Positions 57,998-60,324 of a stretch of 64,000 nt of DNA are shown here, one piece after another. Under the pieces are notes generated by a model. The model saw only the letters and a list, made by a program, of their open reading frames with translations. It made no database searches and was not told where the DNA came from. The DNA is from Aphanizomenon flos-aquae FACHB-1287. Its GTDB lineage: Bacteria; Cyanobacteriota; Cyanobacteriia; Cyanobacteriales; Nostocaceae. How positions within the stretch are numbered: the first letter of the stretch is position 1; every line of letters starts with the position of its first letter. Where the stretch lies: NCBI RefSeq assembly GCF_014698755.1, contig NZ_JACJTO010000022.1, positions 1 to 64,000 of the forward strand, in the 5' to 3' direction. Made by a program: the position numbers and the translations under genes.

Positions 57998-58294
57998 TCA
58001 GTGAGTCATTTCATTTAAAGCTATATTAATTATTTCTTCACTAACTCCATGATATTTTAAATTTTCAATAAAAGTAGAAACTCCTTGATTACGACTTTCT
58101 AAATAATATAATATAGCTGCGATAGGAGATGGAGGATCAATAGGATAATTTTGTTGTTCATAGACTTCTACTAAAGTCGTTAAAATATCTAATTTCTCAT
58201 ATTCTGGTGTATTAGGTTCAGCATCAAAAATTTGTTCGATTTCTTTTAATGCCTGTTGATGATCTGATTCTGTTCTAATGGGTTTTAAGTTCAT
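57998..58294 (-). CDS. higA: HigA-type antitoxin with atypical C-terminus
   Basis: The first 65 of 98 residues match HigA antitoxins (NLKPIRTESDHQQALKEIEQ and LVEVYEQQNYPIDPPSPIAA). From there HigA normally has a Cro/C1 helix-turn-helix with LxRKDLEPxIGS. Here it reads YYLESRNQGVSTFIENLKYH instead, with no recognisable HTH, and the protein is short. It may bind toxin but not DNA in the usual way. It is downstream of the toxin gene by 14 bases. Confidence 0.7.
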   Translation of the reverse strand: MNLKPIRTESDHQQALKEIEQIFDAEPNTPEYEKLDILTTLVEVYEQQNYPIDPPSPIAAILYYLESRNQGVSTFIENLKYHGVSEEIINIALNEMTH

Positions 58295-58308
58295 AATATC
58301 AAGCCTCC

Positions 58309-58602
58309 TTAAACAATAGTAGCATCTATTTTGTCATATTCTTGATGAGTACCAATAAAGCGAATAAAAATAATGCCAATTTCATAACGAATATGGATAA
58401 TTAAACGATAATTATTACCTTTAATATTAAAAACTACTCGGTTATTGGCAATAATACTGGCATTAGCATAAACTTCTTTAATATCTGATGGACTTTGCCA
58501 ATTTGCACGGGAAGCATCATCAAACCATGCTTTTAAAGGCTGTTCTATATCAGGATGTTTTTGCCAATATTCTCTTAGGGTACTCCGAGCAATAATTCTC
58601 AT
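58309..58602 (-). CDS. higB: HigB-type mRNA interferase toxin
   Basis: The 97-residue protein is a RelE-superfamily HigB: IIARSTLREYWQKHPDIEQP, NRVVFNIKGNNYRLIIHIRY and VFIRFIGTHQEYDKIDA-like end (IIFIRFIGTHQEYDKIDATI). HigB cuts mRNA on the ribosome. The toxin-first order is typical of higBA. Confidence 0.88.
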   Translation of the reverse strand: MRIIARSTLREYWQKHPDIEQPLKAWFDDASRANWQSPSDIKEVYANASIIANNRVVFNIKGNNYRLIIHIRYEIGIIFIRFIGTHQEYDKIDATIV

Positions 58603-58718: not shown

Positions 58719-59519
58719 TTAATCCTTGGTAATAAATTCTAATATAAAAAATGTTTTCAATAAATGTTGATCTACTTTTTGTGCTAAATCTTTTAAAAAA
58801 TCGTTAAATTGTAAAGCCTCCGCTAAATTAATCTCTGTATTACCTCCATGAACTATTCTATTTCGTTTCTCTTGTATTTTTGTAAATTCTGATGCTTCTT
58901 TTTCGGTTATTTCTACATGAAAAGCATCTTTTAATATCTTTAAAATATCTCTAGCTTCAATGTTTTTATCCTTTTTGAATTTACCCTGAAGTTCTATGAG
59001 TCCAAAATAACAAAGCAGTTGTGAAGGAAACGAATAGTTTGTTTGTTGTAATTCATTTATTGCTTTTTCATATTTTCCTAATTTTGATGGTTTCTTTGGC
59101 TCTTTTAGTTTCTTTACTAAATTATTAGTATCTTCATAATCACTAATTTTTCTATCTATTTTTGATTTTAATAAACTTTTAAAATTTTCTCTACCACCAT
59201 TAAGATCAAAAAATTCTTCAATTACATTAGAAATATAATACTCAAAATAAGTAAATGAGCTTATTAGCAGTAATTTACCTAAAGTTTTTTGATAATTAGG
59301 CTTAATTTCCTTTAATCTACTATGATCTGCATTTTCATACTCTGGATTTTTCTTAAAATGATCAGGATCGGGAAGTTTATCTGGTTTACCGTTACCCAAT
59401 TCAACAGCCTTCATGTAAGCGTTAAGAGAGGGTACAGCGTAACAACACAAAATTATAAAATCAAGAGACTCTTGTATTTGAGATTTTAGCTTGAAATAGC
59501 TTTCTGAATGCTTTCTCAT
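58719..59519 (-). CDS. HEPN-domain (RiboL-PSP-HEPN-like) protein
   Basis: The 266-residue all-helical protein has a clear HEPN motif R-x4-H, R219NRIVH224 in KRNRIVHGGN. The upstream helices LLISSFTYFEYYISNVIEEF fit the RiboL-PSP-HEPN family found in defence and stress islands. HEPN proteins cut RNA, often tRNA. The rest of the protein is Lys-rich. It is divergent from the interrupted tRNA-Arg by 53 bases. Nuclease activity is inferred from the motif alone. Confidence 0.7.
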   Translation of the reverse strand: MRKHSESYFKLKSQIQESLDFIILCCYAVPSLNAYMKAVELGNGKPDKLPDPDHFKKNPEYENADHSRLKEIKPNYQKTLGKLLLISSFTYFEYYISNVIEEFFDLNGGRENFKSLLKSKIDRKISDYEDTNNLVKKLKEPKKPSKLGKYEKAINELQQTNYSFPSQLLCYFGLIELQGKFKKDKNIEARDILKILKDAFHVEITEKEASEFTKIQEKRNRIVHGGNTEINLAEALQFNDFLKDLAQKVDQHLLKTFFILEFITKD

Positions 59520-59557
59520 AGTTTACTATTGACTTATTTACTCTCAATCATTTATAC

Positions 59558-59563
59558 TATAAT
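59558..59563 (+). promoter_or_regulatory. -10 box of the interrupted tRNA-Arg
   Basis: TATAAT lies ten bases before the acceptor 5' end, within the palindrome TATACTATAATAGTATA. The nearest TTGACT (59529-59534) is too far upstream (23-base spacer). Transcription is likely but not shown. Confidence 0.5.
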
Positions 59564-59572
59564 AGTATACAC

Positions 59573-59681
59573 GGACTGCTAGGTGCAACGGTAGCCCGCT
59601 CCCCTCCTTTCTATATGCAAGTCATATATCTATGCTTGCATACAAAAGGGAGAAAACTCGGTTCAATTCCGAGGCAGTCCA
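59573..59681 (+). tRNA. tRNA-Arg (CCT) with a 37-nt hairpin insert in the anticodon loop
   Basis: Acceptor GGACTGC pairs perfectly with GCAGTCC, discriminator A; the T arm is CTCGGTTCAATTCCGAG. The anticodon stem CTCCC (59599-59603) pairs with GGGAG (59648-59652). The loop starts CTCCT, giving anticodon CCT (59606-59608). The next 37 bases (59609-59645) are extra, and removing them leaves loop CTCCTAA. The insert holds a perfect hairpin TATGCAAG/CTTGCATA. The site is the position where tRNA group I introns sit, but 37 bases is far too short for one. The tRNA may be broken, or processed by an unknown route. Confidence 0.7.
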
Positions 59682-59712: not shown

Positions 59713-60324
59713 TTATTTACCAGAAGAATTTTGAGATCCTTGATTTTGGGTAGGTTTTTCAGGAGGCTTGCAAGGTTGCTCAGGAGCTTTGGGTGGTTGA
59801 GGACGCAATTTAGAAACGCCAGCCATACTGTGCTTCTCTCCCTGTTGCTGATGCTGTTTATTAAGGTGTTGTTCTTGACTCATACTTGTTTTTTTCTCGC
59901 TGAGGTTTAGTATTGCTGAATTAATTCCAATTATAACTACTAAAATTATACCTATGCTAAAACTAAATCCAGCAATTTTATCCACAATCATCAAAATCCC
60001 ATCTTGGGTTTGATTCTCGTTCAGAATTTTCTCAATGTGTAAAGCGTTTCTATCAAGTATATAAATAATAGAAATAACTGTAATTAAAAAGCTAAGTAGA
60101 GCAAAACTAAACAGAAGTAGCTGAGTAAAGTTTGAAACGCCAATTGTTCTAAGTAAAGTAACCAGAACTCCAATTGCAGTTACAGATAGTGTTAATAGTT
60201 GTTTATCTCTTTCAATCCTTGTGTTAATCCAAGCACTAACCATAGCACTATAGAAAGCTTTCTCTTTTTCTATATATTCTTTTTGTTGTAAATTTTCTGT
60301 ATTATCTATTTTCTCATCATTCAT
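59713..60324 (-). CDS. Multi-span membrane protein of the accessory patch
   Basis: The 203-residue protein has a charged N-terminus and three membrane segments (about 43-61 LLTLSVTAIGVLVTLL, 65-90, 107-135). The motif MVSAWINTRIERDKQLLTLS recalls small membrane effectors seen near phage-defence genes. The last 60 residues are Gln/Pro/Ser-rich and soluble (KLRPQPPKAPEQPCKPPEKP). No precise family was recognised. It reads in the same direction as the HEPN gene across the tRNA; its own downstream end is 32 bases past the tRNA. Confidence 0.55.
   Translation of the reverse strand: MNDEKIDNTENLQQKEYIEKEKAFYSAMVSAWINTRIERDKQLLTLSVTAIGVLVTLLRTIGVSNFTQLLLFSFALLSFLITVISIIYILDRNALHIEKILNENQTQDGILMIVDKIAGFSFSIGIILVVIIGINSAILNLSEKKTSMSQEQHLNKQHQQQGEKHSMAGVSKLRPQPPKAPEQPCKPPEKPTQNQGSQNSSGK

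Follow-up and report, generated by a model that had tools for sequence, protein, structure and literature searches.

A tRNA-shaped RNA with a hairpin in its anticodon arm is conserved beside a HEPN ribonuclease gene in cyanobacteria and may be its antitoxin

What is a tRNA gene with a hairpin in its anticodon loop doing in a bacterial genome? The question is raised by a locus of Aphanizomenon flos-aquae FACHB-1287, located in a stretch of 64,000 nucleotides (the window; contig NZ_JACJTO010000022.1, positions 1 to 64,000) of a genome of 4.35 Mb that is 99.75% complete. An earlier note on this DNA had described a tRNA interrupted by an insert with a perfect 8-bp stem, which was confirmed: a 109-nt cloverleaf gene with a 37-nt insert in its anticodon loop lies on the plus strand at 59573–59681. 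Further copies were found in another genus (genome G053, locus L034) and in three genomes referred to here as Synechococcus-type (G535, G536 and G613; loci L040, L041 and L107). The gene and its parts are the following.

59558–59563, plus strand: TATAAT, a −10-like box nine bases before the tRNA; the G053 copy has one too
59573–59681, plus strand: the whole gene for a tRNA-shaped RNA with a hairpin-filled, extended anticodon arm, recognized by sequence, fold and the intron mode of ARAGORN, with homologues in L034, L040, L041 and L107
59599–59603, plus strand: 5′ strand of the anticodon stem, CTCCC, the partner of 59648–59652
59604–59613, plus strand: internal loop, 5′ side, CTCCTTTCTA, without any change in G053; the three Synechococcus-type copies share its CTCC
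59614–59621, plus strand: 5′ strand of the insert stem, TATGCAAG, which forms a perfect 8-bp stem with CTTGCATA
59622–59634, plus strand: terminal loop of the insert, variable, with 7 of 13 positions different in G053
59635–59642, plus strand: 3′ strand of the insert stem, CTTGCATA; one pair becomes G-U in G053
59643–59647, plus strand: 3′ side of the internal loop, CAAAA, from the comparison of window and G053
59648–59652, plus strand: 3′ strand of the anticodon stem, GGGAG, which forms a 5-bp stem with CTCCC
59657–59673, plus strand: T-arm, CTCGG-TTCAATT-CCGAG, in which window and G053 differ by a compensatory change of both partners of a pair (C-G to T-A)

Of the arms, all of which had been said to pair well, the acceptor (7 bp, GGACTGC/GCAGTCC), anticodon and T stems are present, and ARAGORN in intron mode detects the cloverleaf in all five copies, but the D-stem of the window copy is poor. 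The promoter-like box exists as previously noted, at a spacing of nine rather than ten bases. When introns of 10–120 nt were required, the only gene that ARAGORN reported in the 64-kb window was this one, with an intron of 37 nt; default ARAGORN and Rfam (window, gathering score) both miss it. The fold energy of the RNA is far better than that of shuffled sequences (z −5.7; none of 200 as good). The minimum free energy fold favors a rival pairing, CUCCUUU/AAAGGGAG, which displaces the CUCCC/GGGAG anticodon stem (59599–59652), and an RNA with two states is possible for the copies of the window and G053. An uninterrupted anticodon loop of 7 nt is absent from the gene, irrespective of the lineage: the insert measures 37 nt in the window and G053 and 25 nt in the three Synechococcus-type copies, and the inserts of the two lineages are unrelated in sequence. 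A likeness of CCUCCUUU to the anti-Shine-Dalgarno end of 16S rRNA was dropped, as the other lineage does not have it.

The identity of the interrupted tRNA is not secure. The insert had been placed directly after anticodon base 36 of a tRNA-Arg(CCU); its length and its position in the anticodon loop stand, but because the joint can slide, the exact insertion point is ambiguous and the anticodon may be read as CCU, CCA or CAA. ARAGORN reads the copies of the window and G053 as Leu(CAA) and the other three as Arg(CCT) or Arg(TCT). When the exons were compared with 43 tRNAs, of which 42 come from the window genome (thus a weak test for the Synechococcus-type copies), no clear parent emerged. Because other readings fit and the exons closely resemble none of these 43, assignment to tRNA-Arg is insecure. 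The intron-less exon sequence had only short or partial similarities to phage DNA, some of them annotated as tRNA-Arg or tRNA-Trp (E 0.2–0.6). As the earlier note had surmised, the genome contains other tRNA-Arg genes: an intact tRNA-Arg(CCT) at C30:22953–23026 and a tRNA-Arg(TCT), as well as a tRNA-Trp(CCA), and the interrupted gene is therefore not needed for reading AGG.

Could the insert be what is left of a mobile element? It lies in the same gene region as the known group I introns of tRNA-Arg(CCU), which would fit a remnant of such an intron. However, the core of a group I ribozyme comprises ∼200 nt or more, and at 37 or 25 nt the insert is, as already suspected, too short; no intron family of Rfam matched, either in the window (gathering score) or in the five loci (E up to 1), and the inserts of the two lineages are unrelated. 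A group I remnant is thus scarcely credible. The idea of a palindromic transposon had to be abandoned as well, since a DNA search of the own genome returned the locus itself and two partial matches (16 and 26 nt).

The main point lies next to the RNA gene and had been missed in the earlier note, namely an adjoining HEPN gene and the conservation of this pairing. Two more features are needed here.

58719–59519, minus strand: HEPN_RiboL-PSP ribonuclease gene (PF18735) for a putative toxin of 266 aa with an RNxIxH motif, divergent from the RNA and 53 bp apart
59520–59572, no strand: intergenic region, the presumed shared divergent promoter of the HEPN gene and the RNA

The HEPN protein matches PF18735 of Pfam with 54.4 bits (E 2e-14), above the curated cut-off of 28.4, and the catalytic R-x4-6-H motif (R219 N220 ... 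H224) is invariant in 5/5 members of its subfamily. Abi_2 (PF07751) was not matched at E up to 0.1, and PADLOC matches were marginal (best E 0.001, RTasHEPN). The AlphaFold model of the protein is poor (mean pLDDT 59), and with it Foldseek found no PDB match at E 0.001. Four matches to HEPN_RiboL-PSP are present in the window genome. Beyond the HEPN gene lies a HigB/HigA-like pair (57998–58602, minus strand), of which the HigB-like toxin matches the PD-Lambda-2 A defence model of PADLOC (E 1.7e-43) and its 98-aa partner PD-Lambda-2 B (E 5.5e-17, restricted to positions 1–72 of 402). The RNA is flanked on its other side, at 59713–60324 (minus strand), by a gene which, judged from its sequence, encodes a putative membrane protein; no family scored above the Pfam cut-off for it. 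Because the membrane-protein gene is 93% identical between the window and G053 but the HEPN gene only 66%, the segment of HEPN gene and RNA appears to be mosaic or to have been replaced. In L034, the longest open reading frame listed for the membrane gene covers only the last 124 aa.

Five full-length members of this HEPN subfamily were found, all in cyanobacteria, and in 5/5 an interrupted tRNA is divergent from the HEPN gene, with 50–60 nt between the start codon and the tRNA. The other four proteins are 38–52% identical to that of the window (37–38% for L040 and L041 in the scan that found them). The G053 locus came to light through a DNA search of 192 genomes of the family; it, too, has this HEPN gene, along with a membrane-gene homologue. 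The remaining members were identified via the protein: L040 (Synechococcus sp. J7-Johnson, G535) and L041 (the MAG Cyanobacteria bacterium K_Offshore_surface_m2_239, G536) by a pattern scan of GTDB r220 genomes for the HEPN protein, and G613 when 251 genomes from the family that includes G535 were searched with a HEPN profile. In 3/3 of these Synechococcus-type loci, a tRNA-shaped RNA with a 25-nt insert is located on the opposite strand, 58–60 nt from the HEPN start codon. Since the protein was the only query for these three, their selection did not depend on the tRNA. At its default threshold ARAGORN missed the RNAs of L040 and L041, both of which were found at the relaxed threshold of -ps; L107 was run with -ps only.

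The subfamily is rare, and the 5/5 pairing thus rests on two lineages. HEPN searches of overlapping samples yielded nothing beyond the window, G053 and one fragment (window and G053 in 192 genomes; window, G053 and the fragment in 386; window and the fragment in 224). The fragment, from another genus (G034, L043:1498–1626), is a 42-aa open reading frame containing 36 aa of the HEPN subfamily, and no RNA lies beside it. PF18735 as a whole had matches in 64 of the 292 genomes that made up a sample of the phylum. In the same 292 genomes, ARAGORN in intron mode revealed no interrupted tRNA near 50 of the 139 other PF18735 matches listed (the 30 supplied with their loci, plus 20 chosen largely because the protein is of similar length); the sole intron call, in L062, was by eye an ordinary tRNA more than 500 bp away from the HEPN match. 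Plasmids contained no match to the HEPN protein of the window (tblastn) or to its RNA, and phages none to the HEPN protein of L040 (tblastn). In IMG/VR, scans with A1, P0003 and P0001 produced pattern matches among which no relative was confirmed, and an 18-nt pattern of the Synechococcus-type RNA had no match.

Covariance models extended these searches to the RNA. Over the 192 family genomes, a model built from the window and G053 copies (R1) returned these two, remnants in G145 and G158 (see below) and one weak match in G191. The latter (L114:1501–1602, 32 bits) has no recognizable T-arm, and its locus contains no HEPN at E 0.01; it is probably due to chance, or perhaps a decayed relative. 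With filters off, R1 scored the three Synechococcus-type copies at 29–39 bits. Because the antisense strands of its own two members reached 36–44 bits, that is, at least the Synechococcus-type scores, these values support a shared tRNA-like fold more than kinship in sequence. With default filters, L041 was missed, and the comparison locus L054 gave a non-significant match (15 bits, E 0.52). A second model, R2, yielded two strong matches over 251 genomes (G535 and G613) and 18 others at 20.6–24.1 bits, of which 16 are ordinary tRNA-Gly(TCC) and two (L132 and L136) are not tRNAs; none of the 18 has this HEPN nearby. The weak, 21-bit match L136:1501–1588 (G565) opens with what resembles the D-arm and anticodon stem in the Synechococcus-type RNA, but the 3′ half of a tRNA is missing, as is a HEPN in the locus.

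Whether the RNA is a decaying tRNA can be judged from how it varies relative to the HEPN gene. Its core was defined as anticodon stem, internal loop and insert stem. Between the window and G053, 1 of 41 core positions is changed, with a G-U pair kept, versus 18 of 68 elsewhere (Fisher p 0.0012), including 7 of 13 in the terminal loop of the insert and 7 of 17 in the D-arm region. The HEPN genes of the same two genomes share 66% nucleotide identity (pS 0.51, dS 0.85, dN 0.36), and one change in 41 has a binomial probability of 9e-12 against the synonymous rate of 0.51. The second lineage gave the same picture: between G535 and G613, core and terminal loop differ at 1 of 32 and 3 of 12 positions (HEPN pS 0.58, dS 1.12, dN 0.056), and between G536 and G613 at 1 of 32 and 5 of 12 (HEPN pS 0.57; binomial probability 8e-11 at this rate). 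For the closer pair of G535 and G536, the values are 0 of 32 and 4 of 12 (HEPN pS 0.14). Changes in the acceptor stem among the three Synechococcus-type copies keep the pairing in all. The RNA is thus under constraint rather than decaying, with anticodon stem, internal loop and insert stem near invariant and the terminal loop freer, and the HEPN gene is under constraint as well. The earlier view of the locus as a dead gene does not agree with five genomes in which constraint is focused on the anticodon arm and the insert stem. A pseudogene, or a tRNA with a chance palindrome hitch-hiking beside the HEPN gene, would be compatible with the intact tRNA-Arg(CCT) in the same genome and with the decayed 3′ remnants in G145, G158 and G132; considering that the core differs at 1/41 and 1/32 positions where 51% and 58% of the synonymous HEPN sites differ, and that linkage is 5/5 across two lineages, it is highly improbable.

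The remnants themselves show that the pair can be lost. In G145 and G158, all that is kept of the RNA is a 3′ stretch of 62 nt with 100% identity, which reaches into the insert and lies near a close relative of the ABC-transporter ATPase gene of the window (read in L036); the 192-genome protein search found no match to this HEPN in either genome. In G132 (L037), 21 nt of the 3′ end of the RNA lie beside a close HigBA pair, with no HEPN within the 3-kb locus. Since G145 and G158 may share one event, two or three losses are represented. The setting was examined for attC sites in Synechococcus-type genomes. In 3/3 of the Synechococcus-type loci, the pair by itself occupies ∼1 kb; at one end, downstream of the RNA, lies an attC-like palindrome (L040:780–867, with homologous sites at L041:2690–2778 and L107:2482–2572), and at the other, directly after the HEPN stop codon, an AGCTAAC motif past which the three sequences diverge. 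The 88 nt of L040:780–867, the only one of the three sites so tested, fold as DNA better than shuffled sequences (z −4.7 and −4.9). This cassette-like setting suggests integron-type cassette arrays in these genomes; because the ends depart from consensus, as does the R′ end of the L040 palindrome from RYYYAAC / GTTRRRY, "integron cassette" is a reading and not proof. Another attC candidate, L041:933–1024, folds no better than shuffles (z −1.0), and L109:74–128 is a further match to the attC pattern.

What, then, might the RNA do for the HEPN protein, or the protein for the RNA? The HEPN-like KEN domain of Ire1 is the splicing endonuclease for HAC1/XBP1 mRNA, and the HEPN protein could by the same token be a dedicated endonuclease that excises the hairpin, with a ligase rejoining the halves into an accessory tRNA. 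Its presence beside the interrupted tRNA in 5/5 loci would agree with this, as would the exons, which keep a tRNA fold and in which changes mostly preserve pairs, and the fact that a 7-nt loop with U33 (CUCC+UAA/AAA) can, by eye, be written for both lineages. The full tRNA fold with its conserved acceptor and T-arm could equally well stand for a spliced or otherwise functional tRNA. As for the ligase, G053 has RtcB, but RtcB was unmatched in the other three of the four carriers searched (the window genome, G535 and G536), and the 2′-5′ RNA ligase PF13563 was unmatched in 5/5 carriers, in contrast to its presence in 11 of 14 control genomes. The search was for RtcB and PF13563 in the assemblies as they stand; such absences may be usual for cyanobacteria, because a control, Synechococcus elongatus, matches neither family. 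They nevertheless weaken the splicing model. Moreover, sliding of the joint leads to anticodons that differ between the two lineages, the 43 tRNAs compared (nearly all from the window genome) did not include a clear parent, and intact tRNA genes for Arg(CCT), Arg(TCT) and Trp(CCA) are present in that genome. The tRNA introns of archaea and eukaryotes are likewise short inserts near the anticodon, but no bulge-helix-bulge was seen by eye in the predicted folds, the host is bacterial, and the two ligase families are mostly absent. Splicing is thus distinctly unlikely.

The reading that we prefer, with slightly more confidence than doubt, is that the RNA and the HEPN gene would form one two-gene toxin–antitoxin or defence module, in which the tRNA-shaped RNA most likely binds the HEPN protein and keeps it inactive; as part of this explanation, the RNA would not be a translating tRNA. 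The toxicity of the HEPN protein, the antitoxin role of the RNA, the target and the trigger are what we infer. The analogy is with AbiF of C. difficile, a toxic HEPN-like protein which is neutralized by direct binding of a small RNA, RCd22 (PMC12373285); according to a review, AbiF is neutralized by a small RNA, AbiFr, whose bulge nucleotides inhibit it (PMC12737573), and RiboL-PSP-HEPN is listed as a distant relative of AbiF/AbiD (PMC3710099). As AbiFr/RCd22 does for AbiF, the stable tRNA-shaped small RNA would bind the HEPN enzyme and hold it inactive until the RNA is gone, whether because its transcription is shut off, because it is cleaved or because the module is lost; the freed enzyme would then cut RNA, plausibly tRNAs at the anticodon loop, which the decoy would mimic, and thereby stop translation. 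On the same analogy, what grips the HEPN protein might be the internal loop that is conserved in the lengthened anticodon arm, with the variable terminal loop doing nothing specific, and the tRNA shape could supply maturation, stability and substrate mimicry. Tentative, and to our mind somewhat more doubtful than probable, is the proposal of a class of RNA antitoxins or decoys that have a full tRNA shape with a hairpin-lengthened anticodon arm and restrain a tRNA-cutting RiboL-PSP HEPN toxin in a self-contained cyanobacterial two-gene module. Among the open-access papers listed in full-text searches, no title or displayed abstract dealt with a HEPN gene that is paired with a tRNA of this interrupted kind or with an antitoxin in the shape of a tRNA, which leaves room for such work elsewhere.

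The anticodon arm is a usual site for tRNA-cutting nucleases, and the RNA might instead be a bait or sensor: a nuclease of a phage or of the host would cut it (or its modification would fail), and the cut form would activate the HEPN protein for abortive defence. HEPN enzymes are common in defence (PMC3710099), and the neighbors in the window match the PD-Lambda-2 A and B defence models. However, the sequence data do not separate activation from inhibition, and we regard the bait as rather unlikely. It is also conceivable that the HEPN enzyme cuts host tRNAs and that the lengthened arm makes this copy an uncuttable accessory tRNA, reminiscent of phage tRNAs with altered anticodon loops, which have been proposed to evade tRNA-targeting defences (PMC10264068). 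Yet an anticodon loop filled by the hairpin should be unable to decode, and the two lineages neither show nor share a clear tRNA identity; a resistant tRNA is therefore very unlikely.

An RNA antitoxin of the preferred kind would differ from the known systems that it resembles. Type III systems (ToxIN, AbiQ, TenpNI and CptNI) share the proposed principle of a ribonuclease toxin held by RNA, but their known antitoxins are tandem repeats upstream of the toxin and in the same direction, whereas here, the toxin is a HEPN protein by Pfam and the RNA is a single, divergent unit in 5/5 loci, without tandem repeats upon inspection. AbiF/AbiFr (RCd22) is alike in its HEPN ribonuclease with an RNxxxH motif, its adjacent structured small RNA and its mobile or defence setting. 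The HEPN protein described here belongs to another Pfam family, PF18735, and the abiF RNA motif RF03085 was not found at the five loci (Rfam, E up to 1); the gene for AbiF-Cd is preceded by two abiF motifs (PMC12373285), whereas the RNA beside PF18735 is tRNA-shaped, single and divergent. HEPN-MNT (type VII) also has a HEPN toxin, with a weak Foldseek resemblance (0 matches at E 0.001), but there the antitoxin is an adenylyltransferase protein (PMC7641770) and here an RNA gene. The anticodon nucleases PrrC and RloC are HEPN enzymes, too, and act on tRNA anticodon loops; unlike the present protein, they carry ABC-ATPase domains, and the available part of the source describes no dedicated tRNA-like gene for them (PMC3710099).

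If the HEPN protein were instead to splice the RNA, bacteria would have a means of splicing a tRNA by proteins, a result no less surprising than an antitoxin. If the antitoxin reading is true, control of a HEPN ribonuclease would lie with a mimic of its likely substrate, an entire tRNA whose anticodon arm has been remodeled, and the HEPN superfamily would have a second RNA-controlled branch in addition to AbiF, the presumed ancestor of CRISPR-Cas13 (PMC12737573). It would also explain a bacterial tRNA gene with a short "intron" that nothing must remove. "Interrupted" or "pseudo" tRNA genes of bacteria, of which this one escapes default ARAGORN and Rfam, may thus be regulatory RNAs.
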